Assembly: GCF_011605345.1 (NCBI RefSeq)
Contig: NZ_JAAOXM010000013.1
Location: 1 to 64,000, forward strand
Direction of reading: 5' to 3'
Source of the DNA: Burkholderia sp. D-99
GTDB lineage: Bacteria; Pseudomonadota; Gammaproteobacteria; Burkholderiales; Burkholderiaceae
Length of the DNA: 64,000 nucleotides
The position numbers were made by a program, and so were the translations under genes. This document shows, piece by piece, positions 28,195 to 48,256 of the stretch; the stretch's first letter is position 1, and each line of letters opens with the position of its first letter. The notes under the pieces were generated by a model that did no database searches, had not been told where the DNA came from, and saw only the letters and a program-made list of their open reading frames with translations.

Positions 28195-28338
28195 GTGCGA
28201 TTTCCGGCAATTGGCGGGATTCAAACGTCAATTCCGGTCAAATCGGCGTGATCTCAGGGTATTTTCGGATTTGTCTTATATTCATTGTTGAGGTGAGCCG
28301 ATATCGTTGTGTCATGGTTACCAAGGCTGGAGATGTCC

Positions 28339-28749
28339 ATGACACCGTATCGCGATCTGACCGACCACGAGTGGCGCTGCGCCGCGCCGCTTCTGCCCGA
28401 AATGCAGCCGCGCACCGAGTTGCGCGGCCGGCCGCTGGCCAATACGCGTGCCGTGCTGAACGGCGTACTCTGGGTCATCTACAGCGGCGCAACGTGGTCG
28501 GCCATGCCGCGCCGTTACCCTTCGTATCAGACCTGCCATCGCCGCTTCAAGGTCTGGCACGAGACGGGCACGTTATTGAACGTGATGCGCGAGCTCTATG
28601 GCGACTCGGGCGTGAACCTGTGCAACGAATTGTCCGTGCGGATGCGCAAGCATGCGCAATCGAAAGCAGCGGAGGCGCGTAGCGGTGTGGCACCCGTGGG
28701 TCGCACACCGGGCAGCTATGCGCCGGGCGCGATGAAGCAGGCGGCATGA
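28339..28749 (+). CDS. IS5-type transposase N-terminal domain protein (DUF4096-like)
   Basis: A 136-residue protein with the transposase N-terminal domain only: DLTDHEWRCAAPLLPE, RGRPL, NGVLWVIYSGATW and RRYPSYQTCHRRFKVWHETG. It lines up along its first 85 residues with the protein at 724-1125, and like it lacks the DDE domain; the last 50 residues are basic and low-complexity. GGAG lies 6 bases before the ATG at 28339. It has its own strong terminator and no flanking inverted repeats. Either a relic or a co-opted DNA-binding protein. Confidence 0.6.
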   Translation: MTPYRDLTDHEWRCAAPLLPEMQPRTELRGRPLANTRAVLNGVLWVIYSGATWSAMPRRYPSYQTCHRRFKVWHETGTLLNVMRELYGDSGVNLCNELSVRMRKHAQSKAAEARSGVAPVGRTPGSYAPGAMKQAA

Positions 28750-28798
28750 TGTCCGCTGTTTGCCGTCTTGTTTGCGGCGACGCAACGTACCAAAAGAA

Positions 28799-28836
28799 AA
28801 TCGGCCTGACGACGAAATCGTCAGGCCGATTTTTTC
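28799..28836 (+). terminator. strong bidirectional terminator
   Basis: A perfect 14-bp stem (AATCGGCCTGACGA with its complement) around CGAAA, with a T run on the plus side and an A-rich run on the other. It separates the mini-transposase gene from the convergent DUF2147 gene. Confidence 0.92.
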
Positions 28837-28866: not shown

Positions 28867-29328
28867 TTATTGTTGGCGCACCCAGGTCTGCGACCGGCCG
28901 AGCAGCGACACGCCGATGTAACCGCGCACGACGAGTTTCTGGCCGCCGTCTTCAAGCGTCATCTTGCACTTGTAGACCTTGCCGTTCTCCGGGTCGAGAA
29001 TGTTGCCGCCGTCCCAGTGGTCGCCTTCCTTCTTCATTGCCTTGATGATCGTCATGCCCTTGATGAGCTGATCCTTGCGCTCGTCCGTGCAGGCGCTGCA
29101 GCGGCGATCGGGCGTATCGTTCGCACCGAGGCCCTTGACGACCTTGCCGGTCAGCGCACCGTCGCCGTCCTCGGCGATCTGCACGAGTGCCTTCGGCTGA
29201 TGCGTGTTGTCGTCGATCGTCTGCCACATGCCGATGGGATTGTCGGCTTGTGCGAACGTGGGGGCTGCGCAGGCGAGCAGTGCGCCGGCAACGGCGATTG
29301 CACGCAACGGGCGGGTCAGTTGAATCAT
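28867..29328 (-). CDS. DUF2147 family exported protein
   Basis: A 153-residue periplasmic or secreted protein. The signal peptide runs to about residue 26 (APTFA/QADN). The mature part has the DUF2147 pattern: N-P-I-G-M-W-Q-T-I-D near the start, DRRCSACTDERKDQLIKGMTI in the middle, and LEDGGQKLVVRGYIGVSLLGRSQTW at the end. The two Cys in C-S-A-C could form a disulfide or bind metal. The ATG follows a textbook AGGAGG, which rules out a longer frame. Function unknown; family members are small secreted beta-barrels. Confidence 0.85.
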   Translation of the reverse strand: MIQLTRPLRAIAVAGALLACAAPTFAQADNPIGMWQTIDDNTHQPKALVQIAEDGDGALTGKVVKGLGANDTPDRRCSACTDERKDQLIKGMTIIKAMKKEGDHWDGGNILDPENGKVYKCKMTLEDGGQKLVVRGYIGVSLLGRSQTWVRQQ

Positions 29329-29455
29329 TGTCGTCCTCCTTGTATGTCGTGTTCGATTTGCCCGCACGACCGTCTGCATGGGGCGGGCATGTTGCGAGCT
29401 TCGCCAGAATACGTGAAACCGCACGCCACGTTTGATAGAGGGGACTCTAATCGAA

Positions 29456-29478
29456 ACAGCCCGCGTGGCGCGGGCTGT
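29456..29478 (-). terminator. terminator-like hairpin after the TpsB gene
   Basis: ACAGCCCGCG and CGCGGGCTGT form a 10-bp stem with a three-base loop; on the minus strand TTTCG follows, so the T tract is short. It lies 12 bases past the TpsB stop. Confidence 0.6.
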
Positions 29479-29489
29479 CTGGTGACCGA

Positions 29490-31175
29490 TCAGTTGAGCT
29501 GATACGAGAATGCGGCGTTGATGCGCGGGCTGCGTGATGCGCTTTCGACCGGCGCGTCACCCACCGGCTTCGCGACGTTCAGGTCGAGGCTGTAGAAGCG
29601 GCTGTCCGTGAAACGTACACCGATACCGACCGACGACATGCGGTTCGGCGATGGCGTGCCTGCATGCAGGTACACACGCGCCATGTCGTAGGCGATGTAC
29701 GGCGTGACGGATTTCATATACGTCCAGCCCGGCGTGAAGCCACGGTTGACCTCCAGCGACATCCCCCATCCCGAGTCACCCGACGCTTCGCCCGGCTGAT
29801 AGCCGAGCGCGTAGCGCGTCGAGCCGAACGAGATCTGCTCGGAAGTCGGCAGCGAGTCGGGGCTGTATTGCCCGGTCAGCGAGACCGACGTGCCGATCCG
29901 GAACGGCCATTCATTGGTTTGCGTGAAGGTCGCGCCGGTACGGACGAAGGTCAGTGATGTCGGATCGGCGTACGTGATCGTCGAGCCGTTCGCCTGCGCG
30001 ACCTGCGATTTCGATGCGCCGAGAATGTCGAACGCCTTGGCGACGTTGACGCTCAACTTTCGCACCTGTTTCGGCTGGACGTTCGTGTAGTCAAGCTGCA
30101 GTTGCAGCACGCGAACCTGCGACCGGTTGTCGAGGGTCGCACCGTTGATCTGGTTCTGGTAGTTGTCCTCGTTGTGCGCCGCGTAGCCCGACACCGTGCC
30201 GAGCAGGCTGCGCTGGTTGTTCAGCAGTATCGGATAGGAGGCCGAAAGACCAAGCTTCTCGTTCTTGACCGTACGCTGCACGTACGACGGCAGCCCCGGA
30301 TTGTCGGTCGGCTTGCCGCGATACGTGCTTGCGTCGAGGCGCGTGATCAGGCCACTGCTGCCGACGGGTACCGCGCCGCTGAATGCGAAATAAGTTTGCT
30401 TGTCGCGCCCCGGCGGCGCCAGCGCGGAAATGCTCAACTGCTCGCCGAACTTCGTGAGGCCGTTTTCGGTCGCGGTGATGAGGCCCTGTACGCCCGGGTG
30501 ATTGAAATCGATACCGGTGCTGACGTTGAATGCCTTGCGGTCGACCGCGAGTTCAAGCGTCGTGGCACCGTCGGTGGTTTGCGGCGGCGGCACGTTCGCC
30601 TTCACGGTGAGGCCGGGCAACAGGCCGAAGGTGTTCACGTAGCGCTCGAACGTCGCGCGGCGCAGCGGGCGATCGTCGGTGATATGCGCTGCGATCGCGC
30701 GAATCTTCGATTCCATTGCACCGGGCTTGCCGGTGACCTTCACGTCCGACACATAGCCTTCGACAACCGTGATGCGCACGACGCCGTTCTCGAATGTCTG
30801 CGCGGGAACGAACGCGAACGACAGCGCGTAGCCGCGATCCTGGTAGAGCTTCGTCACGCCGTTGGCGGTTTCGATCAGATCGCCGATCGTGATGTCCTTG
30901 CCGACGAGGGGGGTGAAGCGACGCGAGATTTCCTCGAACGGCACGGACTTCACGCCTTCGACCTGGAACGTCGTCGGCGTCAGGTGGCGCGACAGCAGCT
31001 CCTGCAACTGTGGCGCTTGCGGTGCGACCTGCACGGTCACGTTCGGGCCGGTTTTCGGCGCGTTGATCTGGGGCAGGGAGTCGAGCGGGTTACCTCCAAC
31101 GCGCGTTTGTGCATGTGCCGTGCCTGCTGCCGCGATGGCGAGCAGCATCATCCATCTGTCGAGTCTGGATTTCAT
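29490..31175 (-). CDS. TpsB-type outer-membrane transporter (ShlB/FhaC/HecB family)
   Basis: A two-partner-secretion pore of 561 residues. The signal peptide ends at about AHA (22). POTRA domains occupy about 60-215 (FQVEGVKSVPFEEISRRF, then LYQDRGYALSFAFVP). A 16-strand barrel follows, with the family loop motif present as R-Y-A-L-G-Y-Q-P-G-E-A-S-G-D-S-G and a final aromatic-ending strand (AAFSYQLN). TpsB pores move one exoprotein with an N-terminal TPS domain, yet no such gene is adjacent. It follows the two repeat lipoproteins on the same strand and is likely cotranscribed. GAGGAAGAACA precedes the ATG. Confidence 0.88.
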   Translation of the reverse strand: MKSRLDRWMMLLAIAAAGTAHAQTRVGGNPLDSLPQINAPKTGPNVTVQVAPQAPQLQELLSRHLTPTTFQVEGVKSVPFEEISRRFTPLVGKDITIGDLIETANGVTKLYQDRGYALSFAFVPAQTFENGVVRITVVEGYVSDVKVTGKPGAMESKIRAIAAHITDDRPLRRATFERYVNTFGLLPGLTVKANVPPPQTTDGATTLELAVDRKAFNVSTGIDFNHPGVQGLITATENGLTKFGEQLSISALAPPGRDKQTYFAFSGAVPVGSSGLITRLDASTYRGKPTDNPGLPSYVQRTVKNEKLGLSASYPILLNNQRSLLGTVSGYAAHNEDNYQNQINGATLDNRSQVRVLQLQLDYTNVQPKQVRKLSVNVAKAFDILGASKSQVAQANGSTITYADPTSLTFVRTGATFTQTNEWPFRIGTSVSLTGQYSPDSLPTSEQISFGSTRYALGYQPGEASGDSGWGMSLEVNRGFTPGWTYMKSVTPYIAYDMARVYLHAGTPSPNRMSSVGIGVRFTDSRFYSLDLNVAKPVGDAPVESASRSPRINAAFSYQLN

Positions 31176-31319
31176 TGTTCTTCCTCGTTGGCCTTGCTTT
31201 TCGTCTTCTTTGTAATGCCGGCGCGCGACACCAGGGTGCCGCGCGCCGCGTGCCGCCATGCCGGTTGTGTTTGTACGGTCGCGCCATCCGCTCCGGCTGC
31301 AAAGGTGCGACCGTCCTCC

Positions 31320-32741
31320 TTACTTGCCAACGCTACCCAGCGTACCCAGCAACCCCGTTACCGGTGCCAGCAGGCCCGTCGAGCCGCCGCCCGACGTTGC
31401 CGTACCCGTGACGCTGCCGACCAGCGACGTGACCGGCGCGAGCGGGCTCGCTCCCCCTGACCCTGCTGCGCCGCCAACTGCTCCGGTGACAGTATTCAGC
31501 AAACCGGTAACAGGCGCGAGAGGGTTTGCACTGCCTGCGCCACCCGTTGTACCGCCGAGCGTGCCCGTGACCGTCGATACGAGATTCGTGACGGGGGCGA
31601 GCGGACCGCCGCTACCGCCCGCTGCACCGCTCAGCGCGCCGGTAACGGTGGACACGAGGCCCGTGACGGGCGCGAGCGGGCTGCTGCCCGAACCGCCGGT
31701 CGCGCCGCCAAGTGCGCCCGTGAGCGAGCCGAGCGGCGTCGAGCCGAGACCCGACAGCAGGCCGCCGAGCGGATTCGTCGAGCCGGAACCCGACGACGTG
31801 CCGTTTTGTACGGTCGCAGTCGAGCCGCCGACGAGGCTCGTGATCAGGCCGGGGATCGGTGCCGCGCCGTTCGGGCCGTTCGGGTTGACGAGGCCGCCCG
31901 CGTTGGTCACGGTGTTGCCGACCGCGGTCACGAGCTGACCGACGTCGCCGACGAGCGGCTGGCTCGACGTGCCGCCGACCTGCTTGCCGGCCGAGCTGAT
32001 CGCGCCGCCGACCTGGCCGAGCAGGCCCGAGACGGGTTGGCCGAGGCCGGTCGTCGTGCCGACCTGTTGCGTGACCTGGCCAGCGGTGATCACGAGCGGC
32101 GTGATCGCCGAGCTGAGCGGCTGCGTGACTTGTTGCACGGCGCCCGACGACAGCGTCGAGCCGATCGTCGTGCCGGCGGCCGTCAAGCCATTGGCCACCG
32201 TGTCGAGCACGGTGCCGACCGGGGTCGTGACAGGCGCGAGCGGCGCGAGTTGCCCCGTGCCGAGCGCCTTGACCGTCGAGCTCAGGCCGGCCACCGTGTT
32301 GCTCGTCGCGCCGACCACATTGCCGAGGCCCGCGACAGTCGTGCCGACCGGATCCTTAGTCGTGCCGATCTGTCCCAGCCCGTTGCTCACGGCATCGGCA
32401 GCTGCGCCGACGATCGTGCCGGTGCTGGAGAGCGTGCTGCCGACACCCTTCGTCACACCGTCGCCGAGGCCCGGCACGCTGATGTTGCCGACCGTGCTGC
32501 CGAGGTCGGTGGCCGTCTGGCCAACCGTGCTGACGACACCCTTGGTGCCGGTGGGCGTGCCGCTGGTGCCGCTCGTGCTTGGTGTACCGCTCGTGCTGCT
32601 GGGGTTGTTGTTGCTGCTGGTCGGCGGCGAGCTGACGCCGCCGCCGCCGCAGGCGGCCAGCAGGCAGGCTGCGGCGAAGGCCGTGAGGGGCACGCGCCAC
32701 TGGCGCAGCGCGGCTGTCGTGAGGGAACGTTGCTGGGACAT
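31320..32741 (-). CDS. repeat-rich collagen-like surface lipoprotein, copy 2
   Basis: A 473-residue predicted lipoprotein: signal peptide, then the lipobox L-A-A-C followed by GGGG. A short Ser/Thr/Gly linker (STSGTPSTSGTSG) comes next, then a middle region with TTKDP and QQVTQPLSSAITP blocks. From about residue 330 there are degenerate copies of a repeat with the core [16 protein letters not shown]. The same plan occurs in the neighbour at 32782-34458, so the pair arose by tandem duplication. Composition is extreme (Gly, Ser, Thr, Val), with no catalytic motif. Probably outer-membrane anchored and extended. The TpsB gene lies 144 bases downstream. Confidence 0.8.
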   Translation of the reverse strand: MSQQRSLTTAALRQWRVPLTAFAAACLLAACGGGGVSSPPTSSNNNPSSTSGTPSTSGTSGTPTGTKGVVSTVGQTATDLGSTVGNISVPGLGDGVTKGVGSTLSSTGTIVGAAADAVSNGLGQIGTTKDPVGTTVAGLGNVVGATSNTVAGLSSTVKALGTGQLAPLAPVTTPVGTVLDTVANGLTAAGTTIGSTLSSGAVQQVTQPLSSAITPLVITAGQVTQQVGTTTGLGQPVSGLLGQVGGAISSAGKQVGGTSSQPLVGDVGQLVTAVGNTVTNAGGLVNPNGPNGAAPIPGLITSLVGGSTATVQNGTSSGSGSTNPLGGLLSGLGSTPLGSLTGALGGATGGSGSSPLAPVTGLVSTVTGALSGAAGGSGGPLAPVTNLVSTVTGTLGGTTGGAGSANPLAPVTGLLNTVTGAVGGAAGSGGASPLAPVTSLVGSVTGTATSGGGSTGLLAPVTGLLGTLGSVGK

Positions 32742-32781
32742 GCTTGACTCCTCGCTGTCTTGTCGATTGATGGATCTTGGT

Positions 32782-34458
32782 TTATTTGCCGTGCGTGCCG
32801 CCGAGCAGGCCGCCGATCAGCGACGTGACAGGCGCGAGCGGATTCGACGACGAACCCGAGTTCGTGACGGCACCCGTGCCGCCGGTCAATGCCGGCGCGC
32901 CGACCGTGCTGGTTACCGTGGACACCACGTTCGTCACCGGGGCGAGCGGGCTGCCGCCGCCTGCGCCGCCCGTGGCGCTGCCGAGTGCGCCCGTCACCGC
33001 GCCGAGGAGACCCGTGACCGGCGCGAGCGGGCTACCGCTCGTACCGCCCGTTGCGCCGCCGAGCGCGCCCGTGACCGTCGAGACGAGGCCGGTGACCGGC
33101 GCGAGCGGACCGCCGCTGCCGCCTGTTGCGCCCCCGAGTGCGCCGGTAACCGTCGAGACAAGGCCGGTGACCGGGGCGAGCGGGCCGCCGCTGCCACCCG
33201 TTGCGCCGCCGAGCGCACCGGTAACCGTCGAGACGAGGCCGGTAACCGGGGCGAGCGGGCTGCTGCCGCCGCCCGTTGCGCCGCCGAGTGCGCCGGTAAC
33301 CGTCGAAACGAGGCCGGTGACCGGGGCGAGCGGGCCGCTGCCGCCACCTGTTGCACCACCGAGTGCGCCGGTAACCGTCGAGACGAGGCCGGTGAGCGGT
33401 GCGAGCGGGTTGGTCACACCGCCGGTGCCGCCCGTGAGCAGGCCGCCGACGGCTTTCACGGTGTTGCCCGTCGACGAGACCGTGTTGCCAAGGCCGGTCG
33501 TGACGGGGTTGCCGCCCGCCGACGCGAGCAGGGCGCCGGCCTGGTTCAGGCCGTTGCCGACCGTGCCGAGCAGCGTGTTGACGGGCGCGCCGAGGCCGGT
33601 CGCGGAGCCGATCGTCTGGGTCGTCTGGCCGACCATCGTCGTGATAGGCGTGATGGCCGAGCTGACCGTCTGCGTGACCTGCTGGATCGGACCGGTCGAC
33701 AGTGCGTTGGTGAGGGTGTTGCCGCCGTTCGAGACGGCACCGCCGAGCGTCGACACGAGGCCGCCGACGGCGCCGGTGACCGGTGCGAGCGGCGACAGCG
33801 GGCCGCTGCCGAGGCTCGTGACCAGGTTGCCCGTCTGCGTGACTGCGCCGCCCAGCTGGTTGACCACGCCGCCCGTGCTGGCGAGCGTGGTGCCGAGCGG
33901 ATCCTTCGTTGCGCCGAGCTGGCCGAGACCGTTGCCGAGGCCATTGCCGAGTGCGGTCACTGCACCGCCGACGCTCTGCACGATGCCGCCTGCGGCTTGC
34001 GTGGTGGCCGGGTTGACGCCCGGCAGCGACTGGCTGCCGATGACGGAACCGAGACCCGAGACGGTTCCGCCGACACCCGTCACGATGTTGCTGCTGCTTG
34101 CGAGGACAGTTCCCACTGCGTTCGACGACACACCCGAGGTGCCGCTCGTGCCACTCGTGCCGGACGTACCGCTGGTGCCGGAGGTGCCGGACGTACCACT
34201 CGTGCCAGAGGTACCACTGGTGCCGGAGGTGCCGCTCGTGCCCGAGGTTCCGCTGGTGCCGGACGTACCGCTCGAACCAGAGGTTCCGCTCGTGCCCGAC
34301 GTGGAGATCGTATCGCCGCCACCGGAACTCGAGCCGCCGCCAAGCCCCTGGCTGATGGAACCGGAGCCGCCGCACGCGGAGAGGGAAAGCATGGCTGCAA
34401 CGGTGGCCGCGATCAGAGTCGTCCGGAACACGCCATGGGGGATAACCTTAATGTCCAT
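32782..34458 (-). CDS. repeat-rich collagen-like surface lipoprotein, copy 1
   Basis: A 558-residue predicted lipoprotein with the lipobox L-S-A-C near residue 29. Residues 53-109 are 19 triplets of TSG type, which read as a Gly-X-Y collagen-like tract. A unique middle region follows with [10 protein letters not shown] and [13 protein letters not shown] blocks shared with the neighbour. Then come about eight copies of a 25-residue repeat with the core [16 protein letters not shown], nearly identical at the DNA level with a 75-base period. It is the first gene of the minus-strand set. Its role is unknown; an adhesin or surface-layer role is inferred from composition only. Confidence 0.8.
32930..33415. 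repeat. 75-base tandem repeat array
   Basis: The motif GTGACCGGCGCGAGCGG and its variants recur with a 75-base period near 33014, 33091, 33166, 33241, 33316 and 33391. Each unit encodes 25 residues on the minus strand, so gain or loss of a unit keeps the frame. Confidence 0.85.
34132..34302. repeat. 9-base tandem repeat encoding (Thr-Ser-Gly)n
   Basis: Nineteen consecutive 9-base units (such as GCCGGACGT and GCCGCTCGT on the plus strand) encode Thr-Ser-Gly on the minus strand, one of them Ser-Ser-Gly. Codon choice varies between units, so the protein repeat is kept while the DNA repeat is imperfect. Confidence 0.85.
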
Positions 34459-35135
34459 TTTGTCCTCGCATTAAAAATGTGTTGTGAACTTCGTTGTGTT
34501 GAGTGGTGCGGGGACTACTCTGCAACTGTCGTGCCATTTCGATGCCCGACGGTTCGACAACAGGTTTTAAACGGGGCAATTCCTTGTCGGAAAAGGAGGT
34601 TATGGAAATTGAAAGATTGTTGAATCTGTTTAAGTGCAGACGAATGAGAACGGTTTCGAGCGTTTCGTAACGTAACGTCACAACATTGGCGTTACGCGTG
34701 CGACGTAACGTGGAGGCCGCGCAGGCTTGGTGGACGAGGCAATTGTTTTACTGGTGGATTAGGTGTGCACATCTAACCTATCGTAAATCCTATGTGTAAG
34801 TCGTACCGAAACGCCGTACAAATACGCTGTGCTCCTGGTCATTTTTTTCGATCCAGGCCGTTAAAAGAGGTTGGAAGTTAAATAGGATCGGATATAGAAT
34901 CCGGAGCAGATGTAAGGAAATGTACGGTTCGGTACACAACGTTCGAGGAGGGTCACTATCGCGAATGTTAACTTGCATCAAATGGTGAGCCATGCCCCTC
35001 GGGGCAATCTATAAAGAAAGTGCACCTGGTTGTCGTTGCAGCAGATGTGGCGAACAGCGCGGGGCAACGGCCAGATATGCGGGGATGTATACGTATAAAA
35101 GGCCAAAGAACGTAAATACAGGCACGAGGAATAAA
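34459..35135. other. AT-rich divergent regulatory region between lipoprotein and flp operons
   Basis: About 680 bases without a convincing gene and visibly lower in GC than either side. It contains four CGTAACG or CGTTACG elements (34666-34672, 34671-34677, 34690-34696, 34704-34710), a TGTAC-N6-GTACA dyad at 34921-34936 and a small GCCCC/GGGGC hairpin near 35000. A 22-codon frame at 34602-34670 has AGGAGG only two bases before its ATG. I could not find a convincing -24/-12 sigma-54 promoter by eye. Confidence 0.6.
34602..34670 (+). CDS. possible 22-residue leader peptide
   Basis: An ATG follows AAAAGGAGGTT and opens a frame of 22 codons (MEIERLLNLFKCRRM at its start) ending in TAA inside the CGTAACG cluster. 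The spacing of the ribosome-binding site is shorter than usual. No family recognised; it may be chance. Confidence 0.2.
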   Translation: MEIERLLNLFKCRRMRTVSSVS

Positions 35136-35345
35136 ATGAAAGCAATCATCAAGCGTTTCCTTAGGGAAAACAACGGGGTTACCGCGATCGAGTACGGGCT
35201 GATTGCGGGTCTTATCGCTGTCGCGATTCTGGCGGGTGCTTCCAACATCGGCACGAGTCTCGGTAATATGTTCACGAATCTCGGGTCATGTATTAGTGCC
35301 CCGACGACGGCCACGAACTGCACGGCTGCCACCATCTTTAAGTAA
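35136..35345 (+). CDS. flp: Flp-type pilin
   Basis: The 69-residue major subunit of the tight-adherence (Flp, type IVb) pilus. The prepilin peptidase site lies after Gly14 (ENNG/VTAIEYGL), with the diagnostic Glu at mature position 5 and Tyr at 6. A hydrophobic helix (about 18-45) follows, then a short tail with two Cys that may pair. GAGGAAT precedes the ATG. It is the first gene of the tad cluster; the hairpin after it may let it be expressed more than the assembly genes. Confidence 0.93.
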   Translation: MKAIIKRFLRENNGVTAIEYGLIAGLIAVAILAGASNIGTSLGNMFTNLGSCISAPTTATNCTAATIFK

Positions 35346-36489: not shown

Positions 36490-37422
36490 ATGGCCAACAA
36501 TTTAACGAAGATCATCGCGGGACTGCTGATCGCAATCGCCGTATTGCTCGGAATCTACGCGTGGATGCTTGGACGTGGCACGCAGAATGCCGCGCCTGTC
36601 CAGCAAACCGTTGCGGCAAGCCCGGTTCCGGTCGTGATTGCGACGCGCGTGTTGCCCGCCGGCCAGCCGATTACGGCCGACGCATTGAAGATCAGGCAGA
36701 CCGCACCGGTGCCGACGGGCGCATTTGCCGATCCGTCTGTGCTCGTGGGCCGGGTGCCGGCAGCGGATATTGCGGCTTCGTCGCCGGTCGTCGCGGGGGC
36801 GCTGGTGTCGGGGCTTGCCGAGGATGTTCAGCCGGGTGAGCGTGCGGTCGCCGTCCGGGTCGACGAAACCAATGCGGTCGGCAACCGGCTGCGGCCCGGC
36901 AATTTCGTCGACGTATTCCTGAATCTGAAGCGAGAAGGCGGCGGCACGATGCTTGACGGCGAGGTTTCGCAGACGCAGGCGCGGCTGCTGTTGTCGAAGG
37001 TGCGCGTGCTGTCGTTTGGTGACGCGACACCCGATCGAGACAGCGGCAGCACCACCAATGGCAACAACGGCCAACCTTCCGGTGCCCGCATCGCAGTGCT
37101 TGCGGTGCCGACCGCGCAAGTCGATGCGCTGACGCTTGGCGAGGCGAGCGGACGCCTCACTTTCGCGTTGCGCAACCCGCGCGACGACGAGCTTGCGATG
37201 CAGACGGTCGCGATGCGTACCGACAACAAGCTGTCGCCGTCGGCGCTCGCCGCCGCGGGCGTCTCACTGCAGCAACTGTCCGGCACACCGAGAACCCCGG
37301 TAGCCAACGTGAACGTGCCGCCGCTGCCATCGCGTCTGCCGCCGGCGGTACGGTCGGTCGGGGGCGGCGGGGGAGGAATCGAAGTGATCCGTGGCGGCCG
37401 GTCGGAAACGGTTGCCTATTGA
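36490..37422 (+). CDS. cpaB: Flp pilus assembly protein CpaB/RcpC
   Basis: A 310-residue periplasmic protein anchored by one N-terminal helix (TKIIAGLLIAIAVLLGIYAW). A SAF domain follows (VVIATRVLPAGQPITADALKI, about 47-115) and then the RcpC domain. It associates with the secretin encoded next and helps pilus assembly. The C-terminal 30 residues are Pro/Gly-rich. Confidence 0.88.
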   Translation: MANNLTKIIAGLLIAIAVLLGIYAWMLGRGTQNAAPVQQTVAASPVPVVIATRVLPAGQPITADALKIRQTAPVPTGAFADPSVLVGRVPAADIAASSPVVAGALVSGLAEDVQPGERAVAVRVDETNAVGNRLRPGNFVDVFLNLKREGGGTMLDGEVSQTQARLLLSKVRVLSFGDATPDRDSGSTTNGNNGQPSGARIAVLAVPTAQVDALTLGEASGRLTFALRNPRDDELAMQTVAMRTDNKLSPSALAAAGVSLQQLSGTPRTPVANVNVPPLPSRLPPAVRSVGGGGGGIEVIRGGRSETVAY

Positions 37423-37469
37423 ACGACATCGACGGCCATCGATATCAGCGACGACAAGTAAAGGGCCGC

Positions 37470-38816
37470 GTGACGGTCTACCAAACAATGAAAAACACAC
37501 TGATTGCATTCGCGATTGCCATCTGCACCATGACTTTCGCATCGCTTGCGAGCGCGAGCGGCACGATCGAGCTCGCGGTCGGCGCGCAGCGGCAGCTTTC
37601 GGCGGGCCGTACGTTGCAGCGCGTCGCGGTCGGCGATCCGGCAATCGCCGACGTGCTGATCATGAAGGGCAGCCGCTCGGGTTCCGTGCTGCTGACGGCG
37701 AAAGCGCCTGGCGCGACGAATGTGATGCTGTGGGAGCGCGGTCACGAGGACCCGACCGTCTGGAACGTCGAGGTCGTCGACGCGGCAGCGCAAGCGGTGC
37801 TCGACGGTTCCACGCCGCGCGTGAATGCATACGGTGGCACGGCCGTGCTGCAGGGCTCGTCGGCGACGCTCGATGCGCATGCGCGTGCGGCCGCGGTCGG
37901 CAAGAACATGAGCGGGAAGGGCGCCGTGATCGATCGCTCGACGATCGCGGGCAAGAGTGTCGTGCAGGTCGACGTGCGGGTCGTCGAATTCAGCCGCTCG
38001 GTGCTCAAGCAGGTCGGGTTCAATTTCTTCAAGCAGAGCAACGGCTTTTCGTTCGGATCGTTCTCGCCAGGCGGCGTGCAATCGTATAACGGTGGGTCCC
38101 CCGGCACGGCGGGCTACATTCCTACCCTCGGTTCGCCCGTTTCGTCCGCGTTCAATCTGGTCGTGAATGCCGCGGGACGCGGGATCTTCGCCGACCTGTC
38201 GCTGCTCGAATCGAACAATCTCGCCCGCGTGCTCGCGGAGCCGACGCTCGTCGCGTTGTCCGGTCAGAGCGCGAGCTTCCTCGCCGGCGGCGAGATTCCC
38301 GTGCCGTCGCCGCAAGGGCTCGGCTCGACCGCCATCCAGTGGAAGCAGTACGGTGTCGGACTGTCGCTGACGCCCACGGTGCTGAGCCCGCAGCGGATCG
38401 CGTTGAAGGTTGCGCCCGAATCGAGCCAGCTTGATTACGTGAATAGCGTGACGATCAGCGGCGTTGCGGTGCCGGGGATCACGACGCGCCGTGCCGACAC
38501 GACGGTCGAGCTCGGCGACGGCGAGAGCTTCGTGATTGGCGGCCTGATCGATCGCCAGACGATGTCGAACGTAAGCAAGGTGCCGCTGCTCGGTGATTTG
38601 CCGATCATCGGTACGTTCTTCAAGAATCTGAACTATCAGCAGAACGACAAGGAATTGTTGTTCATCGTGACGCCGCATCTCGTCGCGCCGATCGCGAAGG
38701 GAGCGGTATTGCCCGCGACGCCCGGTGAACTGTCCGAGCAGCGTGACGGGCCGGTCTGGAAATCGTATTTGGGCGGAGCGGCATCGCCGGATGCGGCTCC
38801 GGGTTTTTCGAAATGA
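37470..38816 (+). CDS. cpaC: Flp pilus secretin CpaC/RcpA
   Basis: The outer-membrane secretin through which the pilus passes. I chose the GTG at 37470, with AAAGGG 5 bases upstream, giving 448 residues and a signal peptide ending in SLASA; an ATG at 37488 is the alternative. A pilus-secretin N-domain (about 30-110) and a BON-like segment come first. The secretin core includes LVALSGQSASFLAGGEIPVP and a late V-P-L-L-G-D-L-P-I-I-G block. The C-terminus is short. Confidence 0.9.
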   Translation: MTVYQTMKNTLIAFAIAICTMTFASLASASGTIELAVGAQRQLSAGRTLQRVAVGDPAIADVLIMKGSRSGSVLLTAKAPGATNVMLWERGHEDPTVWNVEVVDAAAQAVLDGSTPRVNAYGGTAVLQGSSATLDAHARAAAVGKNMSGKGAVIDRSTIAGKSVVQVDVRVVEFSRSVLKQVGFNFFKQSNGFSFGSFSPGGVQSYNGGSPGTAGYIPTLGSPVSSAFNLVVNAAGRGIFADLSLLESNNLARVLAEPTLVALSGQSASFLAGGEIPVPSPQGLGSTAIQWKQYGVGLSLTPTVLSPQRIALKVAPESSQLDYVNSVTISGVAVPGITTRRADTTVELGDGESFVIGGLIDRQTMSNVSKVPLLGDLPIIGTFFKNLNYQQNDKELLFIVTPHLVAPIAKGAVLPATPGELSEQRDGPVWKSYLGGAASPDAAPGFSK

Positions 38817-38876
38817 GTGCGATGCATCGCGAGTCGCGACGTATCGTCACGCCTTGCGTAATCGGGGGTGTTCAAC

Positions 38877-40151
38877 ATGAACGCGCGAATCCAATCATTG
38901 TGTGAACCCGCCGTGACAGACTATTTCGTTTGCGCATCGCAACAGGAGGCGCATGTCCGCTGGCTGGCGGATTCGCTCATATCGGCCGGTGCGGTCGAGG
39001 CGGCGTCACTTGAGCCGGGCGTGCTCGCGCAGCGCATCACGGGTCTCAATCCCGCGCTCGTCTTCATTGATTTTTCAGGCGGCAGCACGGCGGCGAGCGT
39101 GGCAGCCGCGGCGGTACGCGCATCCCATCCGGGGCTGCCGATTGTCGCGCTCGGCTCACTTGCCCAGCCGGAGAGCACGCTCGCCGCATTGCGCGCCGGC
39201 GTGCGCGATTTCATCGACGTGTCGGCCGCGGCGGAGGATGCGTTGCGCACGACGCGCGGGCTGCTCGCGAACGTCGGCGAGCCGGCAAGTCGTCACGGCA
39301 AGCTCGTCGCGTTGCTCGGTGCCCGTGCGGGCATGGGCGTGAGCACGCTCGCAGCGAATCTTGCCGTGTTGCTGCAGAAGCGTGCGGTGAGCCCGGCGGC
39401 GGGCGGCGAGTCGAATGGCGGCACACCGGCCGGCCGCCAGACCGCGCTCGTCGACCTGGGGCTGCCGGCAGGCGACGGCGCGCTGTTCCTGAATACCCGC
39501 TGCGAATTTCATTTCATCGATGCGGTTCACAACCTGCGCCGAATCGACCGGACCTTCGTCAACACCGCGCTGACCCGGCATGAGAGCGGCGTTGCATTGA
39601 CGACGCTGCCGGCCGATCTCGGCGGGCTGCGCGACGTTTCGTATGCTTCATGTGCCGGATTGCTGAACCGGTTTCGCGCGTTCTTCGATCAGCAGATCGT
39701 CGATCTCGGTGGCTTTTCGAACCGCGAGTTCGTTGCGCAGATTACGAACTCGGCCGATGAAGCGTGGCTTGTCTGCGATCAGGGCGTCGCGTCGATCGTG
39801 TCCGCTGCCGATCTGCTCACCGGGCTGCGTGATGCGGGTGTCGACACCGATCGTGTACGGCTCGTCGTCAACCAGTACGATCCCGCACTTGATCTGACGC
39901 CGGCACAGATTGCCGAACGTCTCGGCCTGGCGCTGGTGGGTACGTTGCCGTCGCGCCGCGTCGCGATCGGCCATGCGGCAAACCAGGGCCGGCTCATCGT
40001 CGACATGACGGAGCGCGACCCGTACGTGCGTGCGCTCGAGTCGCTCGCCGCGCGGCTGCCAGGCGTGTCGGTCAGATCGTCCGCCGCGCGTCCGGCATCC
40101 GGCCTGTCCGCGCTGAAGCGCTTCATTCAACCCTCGTCCAAGCGGTCGTAA
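38877..40151 (+). CDS. tadZ: pilus localisation ATPase-like protein TadZ/CpaE
   Basis: A 424-residue protein with an N-terminal receiver-like domain (about 10-135) and a MinD/ParA-like domain. The deviant Walker A is degenerate: G-A-R-A-G-M-G-V-S-T where active relatives have K-G-G-x-G-K/A-T, so the signature Lys is Arg and the P-loop Lys is Val. TadZ proteins place the machine at the pole, and atypical P-loops are known in the family. The ATG follows GGGGGTG. The tadA gene starts 3 bases after its stop. Confidence 0.88.
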   Translation: MNARIQSLCEPAVTDYFVCASQQEAHVRWLADSLISAGAVEAASLEPGVLAQRITGLNPALVFIDFSGGSTAASVAAAAVRASHPGLPIVALGSLAQPESTLAALRAGVRDFIDVSAAAEDALRTTRGLLANVGEPASRHGKLVALLGARAGMGVSTLAANLAVLLQKRAVSPAAGGESNGGTPAGRQTALVDLGLPAGDGALFLNTRCEFHFIDAVHNLRRIDRTFVNTALTRHESGVALTTLPADLGGLRDVSYASCAGLLNRFRAFFDQQIVDLGGFSNREFVAQITNSADEAWLVCDQGVASIVSAADLLTGLRDAGVDTDRVRLVVNQYDPALDLTPAQIAERLGLALVGTLPSRRVAIGHAANQGRLIVDMTERDPYVRALESLAARLPGVSVRSSAARPASGLSALKRFIQPSSKRS

Positions 40152-40154
40152 GCG

Positions 40155-41522
40155 ATGGCACACGACATTCAATTCGCCGACGGCGCAGCGCCGTTCCCCC
40201 AGACGCAGCAATTCCATGACATCAAGAATGCCGCGCATGAACATTTGCTGACGCGCATCGAAGAATTGGGCGCCGAGTTCGGCCGATGGTCCCGACAGGC
40301 GATCAACCAGTTTGTCGATCTCGAGATCGACAGCTTCGTGCGCCTGCGCCGCATTCCGCTCAACGAGAACGAGGTGCGGGCGATCGCCGAAGCCCTGACG
40401 AAGGAGCTTGCGGGCTTCGGGCCGATCGAGGACCTGCTCGCGGACCCGGCGGTCGAGGACATCCTGATCAACGGCTACAACGACGTGTACGTGTCGCGTC
40501 ACGGGATCCTCGCGAAGCTGCCGGTTCGCTTTACGGACAACGCGCACCTGCTGCGGATCGTGCGTCGGATCCTTGCGCCGATCGGTCGCCGTCTCGACGA
40601 GTCGAACCCGATGGTCGATGCACGGCTGCCCGACGGAGGCCGCGTGAACGTCGTGATCGAGCCGCTGTCGATCGACGGCCCGGTCGTATCGATCCGGAAA
40701 TTCCGCAAGGATCCGCTGAAGCCGTCCGATCTGCTCGGCAACGGGACGTTCAACGAAGAGATCAACACGCTGCTCCAGGCGGCGGTCGAGGCGCGCTGCA
40801 ACATTCTCGTGTCGGGCGGCACGAGTTCCGGCAAGACGTCGCTGCTCAACGCGCTCGCGTTCCACATTCCGGAGATCGAGCGTGTCGTGACGATCGAGGA
40901 TACGGCGGAGCTGTCGCTGAACCACCCGCACGTCGTGCGTCTCGAGAGCCGTCCGGGCGGTTTCGACGGTACCGGCGTCGTGTCGATTCGCGACCTGCTG
41001 CGCAATACGCTGCGGATGCGCCCGGACCGGATCATCGTCGGCGAAGTGCGCGGCGGCGAAGTGCTGGAAATGCTGCAGGCGATGAACACCGGTCACGACG
41101 GCTCGATGGGTACCGTGCACGCAAGTTCACCGCGCGAGTGCCTGTACCGTCTCGAGATGCTTGCCGGTTTCGCGGGCTTCCAGGGCACCGAGTCGAGCCT
41201 GCGCCGGCAGATTGCGAACGCAATCGACTTCATCGTGCAGATCGGTCGCCTGTCGAACGGGCGGCGGCGGATCCTGTCGATCACCGAAGTGACCGGGCTG
41301 TCCGACAACATCATCGCCACACAGGAGCTTTACCGCTACGAAGCGCGTGTGACGGCGGAGGGCGAGGAAGTCGATCACTGGGAAACGCTCGGCATTCATC
41401 CGCATTCGCCGAAGCTCGCGCGTTTCCGTCAGACGCTGACGAGCGGCGGGTTTGGCGATGGCGGGTATGGCGGCGGCTTCGGTGGTGGCGGGTTCGGTCG
41501 CGGCGGGGGCTTCAATGTATAG
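40155..41522 (+). CDS. tadA: Flp pilus assembly/secretion ATPase TadA/CpaF
   Basis: The hexameric motor ATPase of the Tad machine, 455 residues. The Walker A GGTSSGKT is at 221-228, with the Asp/His boxes between it and a late Walker B region (LRMRPDRIIVGEVRGGE). The last 25 residues are an unusual Gly/Phe-rich tail (GGGFGGGGFGRGGG core). It overlaps tadB by 8 bases, so the two are coupled. Confidence 0.93.
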   Translation: MAHDIQFADGAAPFPQTQQFHDIKNAAHEHLLTRIEELGAEFGRWSRQAINQFVDLEIDSFVRLRRIPLNENEVRAIAEALTKELAGFGPIEDLLADPAVEDILINGYNDVYVSRHGILAKLPVRFTDNAHLLRIVRRILAPIGRRLDESNPMVDARLPDGGRVNVVIEPLSIDGPVVSIRKFRKDPLKPSDLLGNGTFNEEINTLLQAAVEARCNILVSGGTSSGKTSLLNALAFHIPEIERVVTIEDTAELSLNHPHVVRLESRPGGFDGTGVVSIRDLLRNTLRMRPDRIIVGEVRGGEVLEMLQAMNTGHDGSMGTVHASSPRECLYRLEMLAGFAGFQGTESSLRRQIANAIDFIVQIGRLSNGRRRILSITEVTGLSDNIIATQELYRYEARVTAEGEEVDHWETLGIHPHSPKLARFRQTLTSGGFGDGGYGGGFGGGGFGRGGGFNV

Positions 41523-42516
41523 CGCGATGGTTTGGGTGCTGGCCTTCGCGATGCTGTGCGTCGCGGCTGCGATGATGCTGTGGCGTCACGCGGAAACCCG
41601 GCGCGTACGGACCGACGCGAAGCGCTTTATCGACAGCCGGCTTGAACCCGGCGCACGTGCCGGTGTCGCCGCGCAGGCAGCACGGCCATCGGCGGCAGGG
41701 GCCGCGCGCGCGGTGCCGACGCAGCCAGGTGCGGCACGGAGCGCATCGTCCGACACGTTCTGGAAGCATTGGTATGCGACGGCATCCGAGTATCTGACGA
41801 ACCTTGAAAGTCGCGCGGGCATCGAGGATGCACGCGGCAAGACGCTTGTCGCGCTCGTCGTGCTGGTTGCGATCGCGGCGTTCGCGGGCAATCGCGGTGG
41901 CACGCTCGCGTGCTTCGCGGCGCTTGCGTGCGGCTGTTCGATTCTCGGGGTCTGGCTCGCATCGCGAATTCAGCGGCGCAGGCTGAAGATTGTCCGGCAG
42001 ATCCCGTCGTTCCTCGACGGGATCGTGCGTCTCGTCACGCTTGGCAACAGCGTGCCGGCGGCGTTCCAGTCCGCGCTGCAGACGACCGAGGAGCCGCTTC
42101 GCGGCTGTCTCGACCACGTGTCGAGGATGCTGCGAGGCGGCGTCGAAATCGATCGCGCAATGATGCACATCGCGAAAATTTACCGGACTGAGGAGTTCGA
42201 ACTTGTCGGCTCCGTATTGCGATTGTCGGTCAAGTACGGCGGCCGCGCGGATGTGATGCTGGAACGCATGGCCGTGTTCATGCGCGATCTCGAACAGGCG
42301 GAGCGCGAGTTGACTGCGATGTCGGCGGAGACGCGGTTGTCGGCCTTTGTGCTCGTGATGTTGCCGATCGGGATCGGCAGCTTCATCATCGTGTCCAATC
42401 CGAAGTATCTGCACGGGATGTGGAACGATCCGGGTGGACGGACGCTTCTCATGTTCGCGTTCCTGTTGCAATTGGCCGGCAGTGTCTGGCTGTATCGAAT
42501 GGCTCGGCTCAGGTGA
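41515..42516 (+). CDS. tadB: Tad inner-membrane platform protein TadB
   Basis: A 333-residue member of the type II secretion system F family. Hydrophobic helices lie near the start, near 115-155 and at the C-terminus, and the GspF domain spans about 190-315 (FLDGIVRLVTLGNSVPAAFQ). The ATG at 41515 lies within the end of tadA; an earlier in-frame start would lie entirely inside tadA. With TadC it forms the platform on which TadA acts. Confidence 0.9.
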   Translation: MYSAMVWVLAFAMLCVAAAMMLWRHAETRRVRTDAKRFIDSRLEPGARAGVAAQAARPSAAGAARAVPTQPGAARSASSDTFWKHWYATASEYLTNLESRAGIEDARGKTLVALVVLVAIAAFAGNRGGTLACFAALACGCSILGVWLASRIQRRRLKIVRQIPSFLDGIVRLVTLGNSVPAAFQSALQTTEEPLRGCLDHVSRMLRGGVEIDRAMMHIAKIYRTEEFELVGSVLRLSVKYGGRADVMLERMAVFMRDLEQAERELTAMSAETRLSAFVLVMLPIGIGSFIIVSNPKYLHGMWNDPGGRTLLMFAFLLQLAGSVWLYRMARLR

Positions 42517-42520
42517 TGCT

Positions 42521-43513
42521 ATGACAGCGACTCAGATCGGAGCGATTGCCCTGGCGAGCGGCGCACTCGGCGTGCTGCTGTTCGGCATGATTGCATTGTT
42601 GCGCGCGAGTGCGGCGACGCGCGCCGAGCGCGCGCTTGTCGATGCGCTCGATCGGCGTATGGCCACGCTCGAAGCAGCGAAAGCGCGGACGGCGCCGGAC
42701 GGCGATGCGCCAGCGAAGCCCGACGTACGTCGGGGCCAGCGCGTCGAACGTATTCTCGATCGTCTGTCGGCGGCTGGTGTGCGCTGGCTCGAAACCGGAT
42801 TCGGCAAATACGTTGTCGCGGAAGAGGATCGCCGCCTGCTCGAGCAATGCGGTTACGTCGATACGCGCACGCGAGGGTTGTTCCTGAGCGCCCGGGTCGC
42901 GTGCGGGATCGGGTTGCCGCTGCTGTTCGCGATTTTCGCGAGCGGGCGGATGAAGGGCGGCATGTGGATGATCGGTATGTTTGCCGCTTTCGGGCTCGGC
43001 TTCATGTTGCCGAAGCTGTACGTGCAGCGCCGCGCGGCGGCGCGGCGGCAGAGCGTGATCGACGAACTGCCGTTGCTCGTCGACATGCTGCGTCTGTTGC
43101 AGGGCGTCGGGTTGTCGCTCGATCAGAGCCTGCAGGTCGTGACGAACGACTTTCGCGGAATGATGCCGGTACTGTCGTCGGAAATGGGAATTGCACAGCG
43201 CCAGTTCGCGGCAGGCCGGACGCGCGAGCAGTCGTTGCAGCGCCTGTCCAGCGGATTCGACAACGAGGATCTGCGCGCGATCGTGCGATTGATGGTCCAG
43301 GTCGACAAGCATGGCGGTGCGGTGCAGGAGCCGCTCAAGCAGTTCGGCGACCGGTTGCGCGAGACGCGTCGTGCGATGTTGCGTGAACGGATCGGCCGAT
43401 TGACCGTGAAGATGACTGGCGTGATGGTGTTGACGTTGCTGCCCGCCTTGCTGATCGTGACGGCCGGACCGGGTTTGCTGGCGGTGACGCATGCGCTGTC
43501 GTCGCGCCATTGA
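42521..43513 (+). CDS. tadC: Tad inner-membrane platform protein TadC
   Basis: A 330-residue paralogue of TadB. An N-terminal helix (about 8-28), two helices near 125-165, the GspF domain (DELPLLVDMLRLLQGVGLSLDQSLQVV) and a terminal helix are visible. It starts 4 bases after tadB and ends 17 bases before tadD. Confidence 0.9.
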   Translation: MTATQIGAIALASGALGVLLFGMIALLRASAATRAERALVDALDRRMATLEAAKARTAPDGDAPAKPDVRRGQRVERILDRLSAAGVRWLETGFGKYVVAEEDRRLLEQCGYVDTRTRGLFLSARVACGIGLPLLFAIFASGRMKGGMWMIGMFAAFGLGFMLPKLYVQRRAAARRQSVIDELPLLVDMLRLLQGVGLSLDQSLQVVTNDFRGMMPVLSSEMGIAQRQFAAGRTREQSLQRLSSGFDNEDLRAIVRLMVQVDKHGGAVQEPLKQFGDRLRETRRAMLRERIGRLTVKMTGVMVLTLLPALLIVTAGPGLLAVTHALSSRH

Positions 43514-43530
43514 CGGTGGAAGGAAAGACG

Positions 43531-44376
43531 ATGAAGCGGATCAGCGGGATGGCAGCGCAAATGGGGGCGGCTGCGGCAGTGGTACTGCTGCTCGGTGCGT
43601 GCGCAACCAAGGAAAACGGGTACGGCGTCAGCTCGCAGACCGAGCGGGCGGCGCTGATGCAGGCGGCCGATCAGAAGCAGTCCGTACCGGATACGCCCGG
43701 GATGTATCTGGGTCTGATCCAGCGGATGCAGGCGCAGGGGCTCTACTTTGCATCGCTCGCGCATATCGATGCATACGACAAGACATATGGCGCGATTCCG
43801 GAATCGGTCCTGTTGCGCGCGGACGCGCTGCGGATGACCGACCAGCCGGCCGCCAGCGCGGCCGTCTATACGCAACTGCTGAAAACGCCGCTTGCCGCGC
43901 GAGGCTATCGCGGGCTCGGGTTGATCGCGGGCGCGGCAGGCGATTTCGATCGCGCGGCGCAGGCGCTCGCGCAGGCATCGGAGCTTGCGCCGACCGATGC
44001 GTCGCTGCTGTCCGATCTCGCGTACGCGAAGTTGCGCAGCGGCGACATCGTCGGTGCTCGGGTGCCGTTGATGAAGGCGGCCGAACTGGATCAGCGCAAT
44101 CCCAAGATCGTCAGCAATCTTGCGCTTTATCTCATCGCGGCGGGGCGCGCTCAGGATGCTCAACGGTTGATGAATCAGCAACATCTGCCGGCGGATATCC
44201 GCAAGGACATCAATGGCGACGCCGCGAAGATCGTTGCGGCGGCACATGCGCAGCAGCGTGCGGTCGCGACGCCACCGGTGGTGTCGCGTCGTGCCGCCGC
44301 AGCGCCGATTACACCGATGGCGAACAATTTCGGCTATGACCAGACCGTGCCGCTGTTGCAGCGCTTTGCACAATGA
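43531..44376 (+). CDS. tadD: TPR lipoprotein TadD
   Basis: A 281-residue lipoprotein with the lipobox L-G-A-C near residue 23. Tetratricopeptide repeats fill about 90-215 (ARGYRGLGLIAGAAGDFDRAAQAL and following). TadD acts like a pilotin for the RcpA/CpaC secretin. GGAAGG lies 6 bases before the ATG at 43531. Confidence 0.86.
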   Translation: MKRISGMAAQMGAAAAVVLLLGACATKENGYGVSSQTERAALMQAADQKQSVPDTPGMYLGLIQRMQAQGLYFASLAHIDAYDKTYGAIPESVLLRADALRMTDQPAASAAVYTQLLKTPLAARGYRGLGLIAGAAGDFDRAAQALAQASELAPTDASLLSDLAYAKLRSGDIVGARVPLMKAAELDQRNPKIVSNLALYLIAAGRAQDAQRLMNQQHLPADIRKDINGDAAKIVAAAHAQQRAVATPPVVSRRAAAAPITPMANNFGYDQTVPLLQRFAQ

Positions 44377-44396
44377 ACAGACATCCGGGGAACGAC

Positions 44397-44723
44397 ATGA
44401 ACAATAAACACCATCGAAACGTGCGCGTGGGCCGGATCGCAGTAATTGGTGCGATCGCCTGGATCGTGGCCGGCTCGACTGTCGCTCGTGCGCAAGACGC
44501 AAATGCGCCGCACGCGTCCGACGTCGAGCGCTCCGCGAAGGAATGGCTCGCGATGCAGCGGGGCAATCGTGTTGCGGCGCCAGCGCAACCGGTGCTCGGC
44601 GACGTGGCGTCGCTCGTCTATCAACGCTATCTCGACTCGTTCAAGAACAAGATTCCTGACACGATGAATTCGCAGCTCGGTGCTGCCGGTGGCATGTCGG
44701 GTGGCGGGCAAAGCGCGCAGTAA
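44397..44723 (+). CDS. DUF3613 small exported protein of the tad cluster
   Basis: A 108-residue protein with an N-terminal hydrophobic segment ending in VARAQ (signal peptide or anchor). The conserved region SAKEWLAMQRGNRVAAPAQPVLGDVASLVYQRYLDSF matches DUF3613, a family found in tad clusters of Burkholderia and relatives. The C-terminus is Gly-rich. Role unknown; position between tadD and tadG suggests a periplasmic accessory factor. Confidence 0.75.
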   Translation: MNNKHHRNVRVGRIAVIGAIAWIVAGSTVARAQDANAPHASDVERSAKEWLAMQRGNRVAAPAQPVLGDVASLVYQRYLDSFKNKIPDTMNSQLGAAGGMSGGGQSAQ

Positions 44724-44734
44724 GCGAGACGCCG

Positions 44735-46849: not shown

Positions 46850-48256
<1,407 letters not shown>

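Follow-up and report, generated by a model that had tools for sequence, protein, structure and literature searches.

A TpsB-type transporter and its adjoining repeat lipoproteins in Burkholderia: a candidate variant of two-partner secretion

The three core genes

A stretch of 64,000 nucleotides of Burkholderia sp. D-99 (contig NZ_JAAOXM010000013.1; hereafter the window) carries on its minus strand, between positions 29490 and 34458, two genes for repeat lipoproteins with a Collagen_mid domain (CLPs, CLP-A being the first and CLP-B the second of the operon), followed by a gene for an outer-membrane transporter of the TpsB type, known from two-partner secretion (TPS). Comparison across genomes indicates that this TpsB is very probably the partner of the lipoproteins encoded next to it. 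The arrangement itself, put forward in an original prediction, was confirmed by the open reading frames (ORFs) and by Pfam. The two lipoproteins match Collagen_mid (PF15984; 1.7e-67 and 5.7e-63; 212.7 and 227.5 bits against a cut-off of 31.1), CLP-A alone gives an additional match to Collagen (5.6e-8), and the third ORF, 589 aa in its longest form (29490-31259), matches POTRA_2 (9.4e-21) and ShlB (1.1e-18).

By these domains the third product is a member of the TpsB family. Pfam finds one POTRA domain in it; typical TpsBs have two, along with an N-terminal plug helix. Its nearest solved chains are those of CdiB (6wim, 8.5e-19), the POTRA of TpsB4 (2mhj) and FhaC (4ql0, 9e-10). The true start of the gene lies at about 31175 (MKSRLDRW..., directly followed by a signal peptide) rather than at 31259, because a query extended to the longer form meets a stop in 15 of 61 orthologue rows, and the shorter query meets none in the nine of these 15 genomes that it covers. 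The Slam barrel family, with its TPR domains, has no Pfam match in this protein up to E = 1, although Slam itself was not searched for.

Both lipoproteins have a signal peptide and a lipobox cysteine (LSAC/GG and LAAC/GG) and are thus predicted to be lipidated. Their shared blocks, which the prediction had also pointed out, are borne out by the sequence: TKDP and QQVTQ..SSAITP occur in both, and CLP-A and CLP-B share 47% identity over 411 aa. Both are very poor in charged residues (K, R, D or E), with 8 among the 558 residues of CLP-A and 15 among the 473 of CLP-B. Among relatives, a simple lipobox pattern fits 73 of 85 Collagen_mid ORFs.

Occurrence of the transporter and the lipoproteins across genomes

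One check proposed in the prediction was to look for the three-gene order in other Burkholderia genomes. The order is conserved: in 58 of 61 genomes two CLP genes precede the TpsB gene on its strand, while two genomes have one such gene and one genome has none, its TpsB gene beginning at base 2 of the contig. In 249 genomes of the same family, 140 have both partners, two only the TpsB, one only Collagen_mid and 106 neither (Fisher 2e-67, uncorrected for kinship). The three exceptions appear to be decayed or incomplete: the TpsB gene of G168 is interrupted by a stop, G220 retains a Collagen_mid fragment of 242 aa, and G268 is an assembly of 500 contigs. The TpsB gene is in two pieces in Pandoraea horticolens (L185) and in G168 (L113), probably one and the same genome, which has no Collagen_mid match; this would fit the loss of both partners.

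A CLP gene directly precedes the TpsB gene in 18 of 20 loci from other genera, and in a set of 80 loci this holds, on the same strand, for 66, which belong to Ralstonia, Cupriavidus, Collimonas, Glaciimonas, Herbaspirillum, Herminiimonas, Paraburkholderia, Trinickia and Burkholderia. The other 14 are 13 Pandoraea loci and one (L135) whose contig begins there. Five matches come from plasmid records, namely Cupriavidus and Caballeronia replicons of 1.3-2.8 Mb. In one genome (G222; L103 / L117), a single ORF of 894 aa matches both Collagen_mid and TpsB, the TpsB end being truncated; it is probably a decayed copy, since the match found in the genome search carries a stop.

A draw of 398 genomes from the whole phylum gave Collagen_mid in 13, seven of them outside the family, and in all seven a TpsB gene stands immediately behind. 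When the same genomes were searched in the reverse direction with a TpsB profile, the 14 best TpsBs (507-862 bits, the next one scoring 238) were each found to follow a repeat lipoprotein. Thirteen of their genomes are the 13 with Collagen_mid; the fourteenth, G631 (L218), has PLAPVT-like repeats only. Its TpsB gene lies 22 nt downstream of that of a 632-aa lipoprotein rich in LAPVT-like repeats and without a Collagen_mid match. Because the alignment of this lipoprotein with the CLP profile covers only 71 columns (probability 86.8), its kinship is judged from the lipobox, the place, the repeats and the hydrophobic period described below. Below the gap in score, several of the next TpsBs adjoin exoproteins whose N-termini, by eye, are TPS-like. 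The TpsBs of two distant genomes (L229, L230) adjoin ORFs that by eye look FecR-like and adenylate-cyclase-like, and within the stretch displayed no neighbour resembles a TPS protein; these TpsBs may represent another class with unusual partners.

A maximum-likelihood tree separates 21 CLP-type TpsBs, those of Pandoraea and G631 included, from 25 others with a support of 100/100, and the POTRA and barrel families were matched by Pfam in all 46 TpsBs scanned. The tip of loop L6 in TpsBs has the motif VRG(F/Y). In the window TpsB it reads YALGY, without the arginine, while the two other TpsBs of the same genome have VRAY and VRGY. Loss of this arginine was considered as a mark of the clade and ruled out: it is absent from 12 of 19 members and retained in 7.

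Nature of the cargo, transcription unit and neighbouring genes

The prediction described the lipoproteins as collagen-like, which is true of a part of CLP-A, where residues 55-111 form 19 Gly-X-Y triplets, and not of CLP-B, which has no such run, nor of the cargo as a whole. Strict runs of at least six triplets occur in only 8 of 199 Collagen_mid ORFs (duplicates included). In addition, the mean hydrophobicity of Collagen_mid has a single dominant period of 3.63 residues (power 18.4; on a coarser grid the power is 16.8, the 99th percentile of shuffles being 9.3). Collagen was therefore rejected as the feature that unites the cargo, Gly-X-Y runs being rare and the period of the shared domain being close to 3.6 rather than the 3.0 of collagen. 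Single domains behave in the same way, with periods of 3.63 in CLP-A and in CLP-B, 3.61 in Ralstonia and 3.49 in L122, from an outside genus, each exceeding its own shuffles; a roughly cut domain from L121 gave 3.82. Over 586 residues of the partner in G631 the period is 3.62, with a power of 44.5 compared with 8.9. The peak of the PLAPVT region, at 3.57, is weaker evidence for a helix because it is also a harmonic of the 25-aa repeat (25/7). Since the Collagen_mid domains and the G631 partner share these alpha-helical periods, the cargo appears to be characterized by an almost uncharged, amphipathic helix-like patterning, with Gly-X-Y as an occasional feature of the linker. It may resemble membrane-binding helices such as the perilipin repeats. 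The CLP profile had no match among solved structures.

The features of the locus are collected in Table 1. The sequence TGGCACGACAGTTGCA, a perfect sigma-54 element 78 nt before CLP-A, is kept in five aligned Burkholderia, one position being C or T. Within the window alone such sites are not beyond chance, as the two found at one mismatch were equalled in 23 of 100 shuffles; the case for the promoter therefore rests on conservation. Of 166 CLP genes, 104 have the pattern TGGCAY-N5-TTGC within the preceding 350 bases, where 0.019 would be expected per gene. In the 80-locus set it precedes 50 of 61 leading CLPs, 25 of 25 divergent CLPs, none of seven second CLPs, none of the 80 TpsBs and 2 of 60 flp genes, the starts having been set by the simple lipobox rule and genes without a lipobox skipped. 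The 11 leading CLPs without a site are from ten Paraburkholderia or Burkholderia-labelled loci and one Glaciimonas locus. As sigma-54 sites stand before the leading CLPs and before no TpsB, the TpsB gene is probably transcribed from the CLP promoter. By inference, the sigma-54 activator encoded at 46865-48256, at the end of the pilus locus, may act on this promoter. The divergent region between CLP-A and flp (34459-35136) also contains the blocks GTAACGTAACG, GCGTTACGC and ACGTAACG and the inverted repeat TTAGGTGTGCACATCTAA, all kept in five Burkholderia, which may be sites for a shared regulator.

The unit had been thought to end in a hairpin directly after TpsB. This was not supported: the repeat at 29456-29478 has a 9-bp stem and a poor T tract and is not called as a terminator. 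A stronger terminator-like site of 17 pairs (28833-28797) follows the DUF2147 gene, in a search that found three sites against a shuffle mean of 4.9, and is suggestive of a unit ending there rather than directly after TpsB. The DUF2147 gene is kept 3' of TpsB in Burkholderia, Paraburkholderia and Trinickia loci and is lacking in those loci of Ralstonia, Cupriavidus and Oxalobacteraceae that were inspected. Rfam has no match in the window between 27000 and 40000. Downstream of DUF2147 lies a transposase-like ORF (28309-28749, named by eye); in B. cenocepacia a putative transposase, bcal1519, lies on the same side of the cluster (PMC10224339).

Table 1. Features of the lipoprotein-transporter locus and its surroundings in the window
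Feature	Position	Strand	Remarks
CLP-A, 558 aa	32782..34458	-	lipobox, Gly-X-Y stretch, Collagen_mid, PLAPVT repeats
Gly-X-Y stretch of CLP-A, aa 55-111	34126..34296	-	19 triplets, Gly period 3.00
Collagen_mid domain of CLP-A	33430..34026	-	hydrophobic period 3.63 residues
75-bp (25-aa) PLAPVT repeats of CLP-A	32936..33409	-	6.2 copies
CLP-B, 473 aa	31320..32741	-	lipobox, Collagen_mid, PLAPVT repeats; without Gly-X-Y run
Collagen_mid domain of CLP-B	31884..32477	-	hydrophobic period 3.63 residues
TpsB-type outer-membrane transporter, 561 aa from corrected start	29490..31175	-	signal peptide, POTRA, ShlB barrel
POTRA_2 domain of TpsB, aa 67-140	30756..30977	-	Pfam
ShlB barrel match of TpsB, aa 257-522	29610..30407	-	Pfam
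Gene for a DUF2147 protein, probably the fourth of the unit	28867..29328 (ORF 28867-29424)	-	Pfam; start placed by eye
Terminator-like hairpin 3' of DUF2147	28797..28833	-	17 pairs
9-bp inverted repeat between TpsB and DUF2147 (hairpin of the original prediction)	29456..29478	unstranded	by eye
Sigma-54 type promoter TGGCACGACAGTTGCA	34521..34536	-	78 nt before CLP-A
flp prepilin gene	35136..35345	+	first of the divergent Flp/Tad locus
Flp/Tad genes: CpaB, CpaC, TadZ, T2SSE ATPase, two T2SSF, TPR protein, TadE/G-like	36490..46756	+	cpaB/cpaC from sequence, others Pfam
Sigma-54 activator, end of pilus locus	46865..48256	+	Sigma54_activat 1.8e-61, HTH_8; candidate regulator of the CLP promoter

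A possible export route and its alternatives

Starting from the observed gene content and order, lipoboxes, co-occurrence, clade, promoter and pilus linkage, the following route can be proposed. One sigma-54 promoter would drive one or two lipoprotein genes and then the TpsB gene as a single transcript. The lipoproteins would cross the inner membrane by Sec, be lipidated at the lipobox cysteine and be sorted to the outer membrane, where the POTRA domains of TpsB may recognize not a TPS domain but the Collagen_mid/PLAPVT region, which is amphipathic and almost uncharged. The chain would then pass through the TpsB barrel, and the displayed lipoprotein would stay anchored through its lipid and a flexible linker rich in G, S and T, with Gly-X-Y in some species. 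At the surface it may work alongside the Flp/Tad pilus of the neighbouring locus in adhesion and autoaggregation. We consider it likely that the TpsB exports the lipoproteins to the surface. The genes probably form a dedicated export module, similar to two-partner secretion, whose cargo would be lipidated and devoid of a TPS domain and which would act with the Flp/Tad pilus.

Compared with the classical systems (FhaC/FHA, ShlB/ShlA, CdiB/CdiA), the locus has in common a POTRA_2 domain and ShlB barrel and an adjoining cargo gene. It differs in that its cargo has a lipobox, no TPS-domain match and no beta-helix-like periodicity, and its TpsB falls in a separate clade and has lost the L6 arginine. 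As the module lacks the defining feature of a TPS partner, it is best called a variant of two-partner secretion. The surface lipoproteins that depend on Slam (TbpB, fHbp) offer another parallel, as a barrel in the outer membrane brings them to the surface, a role that is here predicted from the genes; the authors of the Slam work liken that route to two-partner secretion (PMC9090332). Unlike Slam, the window TpsB matches ShlB and not the Slam barrel family, and the cargo is unrelated by Pfam.

Pilus genes adjoin most of these loci: flp/tad genes stand within 5 kb of 61 of the 66 CLP-TpsB loci, divergently upstream in 50 and downstream on the same strand in 11, and in the remaining five the contig ends first. 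The 11 same-strand loci are of the Oxalobacteraceae type, with CLP and TpsB just before flp; in L102 the pair is inserted between flp and cpaB, one strand throughout. In Pandoraea, the lipoproteins stay with the pilus genes in all five loci inspected, the TpsB gene being elsewhere. All this would suit a model in which lipoproteins and TpsB are accessories of the pilus, the former lying on the periplasmic side of the outer membrane or in the pilus base and the latter serving the pilus. We find this model unlikely. In one outside genus, three loci (L122-L124) retain the pair with no flp/tad match within about 9 kb, and the Pandoraea TpsB gene is not at the pilus locus. Tad pili already come with a secretin, CpaC, and, to our knowledge, every TpsB studied so far is an exporter.

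The prediction had also left room for a classical TPS-domain exoprotein, encoded elsewhere, as the substrate of the TpsB, whose place beside the lipoproteins would then have another reason. A TpsB can act for a distant TpsA or for more than one (PMC10449530), and 124 of the 140 family genomes with the pair also have a match to the TPS domain (PF05860). The proposed search for such genes elsewhere in Burkholderia found them in 59 of 61 genomes; however, the two others (G001, G003) keep both CLPs and the TpsB, and no match was found in 16 of the 140, from several genera, in searches that stop at E = 0.001, so that an unrecognizable TPS domain could escape. In addition, 72 of the 249 family genomes have a TPS domain and no TpsB of the CLP-linked kind. 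No exoprotein matching PF05860 was found beside the window TpsB. PF05860 matches the D-99 genome in three places, of which two exceed the cut-off and none is on contig C5. One clear TPS gene is directly behind another TpsB gene and the other, an ORF of 4292 aa, has a TpsB gene about 15 kb downstream; the sub-threshold match (C1:465755, L003; 22.7 bits) contains an in-frame stop and is probably a remnant. Given the co-occurrence of TpsB and CLPs, the separate clade and the genomes that have the pair without a TPS match, a distant TpsA is an unlikely partner, and the explanation built upon it seems very improbable indeed. The idea that the TpsB works with the neighbouring lipoproteins rather than with a TPS exoprotein has thus gained strong comparative support (140/2/1/106 genomes, 66 of 80 loci, the clade, 16 of 140 genomes). 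The TpsB could instead be a surface tether or a folding aid, for lipoproteins brought to the surface by some lipoprotein flippase yet to be known. TpsB loops can tether a TpsA, as in HMW1B (PMC5422565), and the L6 arginine is missing from the window TpsB and from most of the 19 clade members; but seven of these have it, and POTRA and barrel are present in every TpsB scanned, so we hold this to be quite improbable.

Several points count against a partnership of TpsB and CLPs, or against surface display. The TpsB of G268 is intact and its genome has no Collagen_mid match. In Pandoraea the TpsB gene is apart from the lipoprotein genes (13 of 80 loci; L079, L080), the two or three CLPs of each genome lying by the pilus genes instead. 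The D-99 genome itself has three further Collagen_mid genes not next to any TpsB (C29:104533, C1:565466, C12:232980; L089-L091). The profile of the reverse search was built in part from the same TpsBs, with three candidates scored per genome, and counts over related genomes are not independent. The tree distances of TpsB and CLP correlate at r = 0.90 (65 loci) and are no closer than with CpaB (0.98, 14 loci), so that a mirror-tree comparison is uninformative as evidence of partnership. PSORT places BCAL1523 of B. cenocepacia in the cytoplasmic membrane (PMC10224339), and the location of BCAL1524 in vesicles, cited below, is no proof of surface exposure. The Collagen_mid profile overlooked the gene at C12:232980 (L091), found with PF15984, and its misses may therefore be false. 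The products of the three further Collagen_mid genes may be cargo in trans.

The same gene set in the same order is known from the flp cluster BCAL1520-1537 of the Burkholderia cepacia complex (Bcc), for which the cargo (BCAL1524, BCAL1523), the operon and the pilus link have already been described (PMC10224339, PMC2753556). CLP-A corresponds to BCAL1524 by position and length, not by sequence (PMC10224339), and BCAL1522 is the TpsB by its place in the operon. BCAL1524-1520 and BCAL1525-1537 form two putative operons, several genes of which are lowered in quorum-sensing mutants (PMC2753556). The collagen-like proteins of the Bcc have been proposed as adhesins, and BCAL1522 is listed as related to heme utilization (PMC10224339); the available part of that paper uses none of the terms ShlB, hemolysin and two-partner. 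BCAL1524 is present in outer-membrane vesicles, and its deletion reduces autoaggregation and virulence in wax-moth larvae (PMC10303873). Contact with host-derived vesicles induces BCAL1520, BCAL1523, BCAL1524 and the flp genes jointly; BCAL1522 is not among the genes named in the available part of that report (PMC7970998). No published link between a TpsB and CLP lipoproteins was found in the literature, as judged from titles, abstracts and term counts, and a search for BCAL1522 gave a single paper. As far as these searches go, the TpsB partnership, its spread over genera, the clade and the sigma-54 sites are new.

We lean, though not strongly, towards a wider view in which these loci represent a phylum-wide subtype: a channel of the Omp85 superfamily, from this TpsB clade, would export N-terminally lipidated, almost uncharged repeat proteins of amphipathic-helix type, the Collagen_mid/PLAPVT region replacing the TPS domain as signal and folding template, under sigma-54 control together with Tad pili. 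It would be a second barrel route, besides Slam, by which Gram-negative bacteria bring lipoproteins to the surface. TpsBs are defined by cargo that has a TPS domain and is beta-helical, and a clade tied to lipoproteins without this domain would set the requirements of the channel apart from the fold of the cargo. It would also offer lipoproteins a way to the surface, a question still open in most Gram-negative bacteria. The word collagen would name only a side feature of the Collagen_mid family. Finally, the partnership would give a function to the unannotated gene beside the described adhesin BCAL1524 and may explain the wide spread of Collagen_mid in Burkholderiales.

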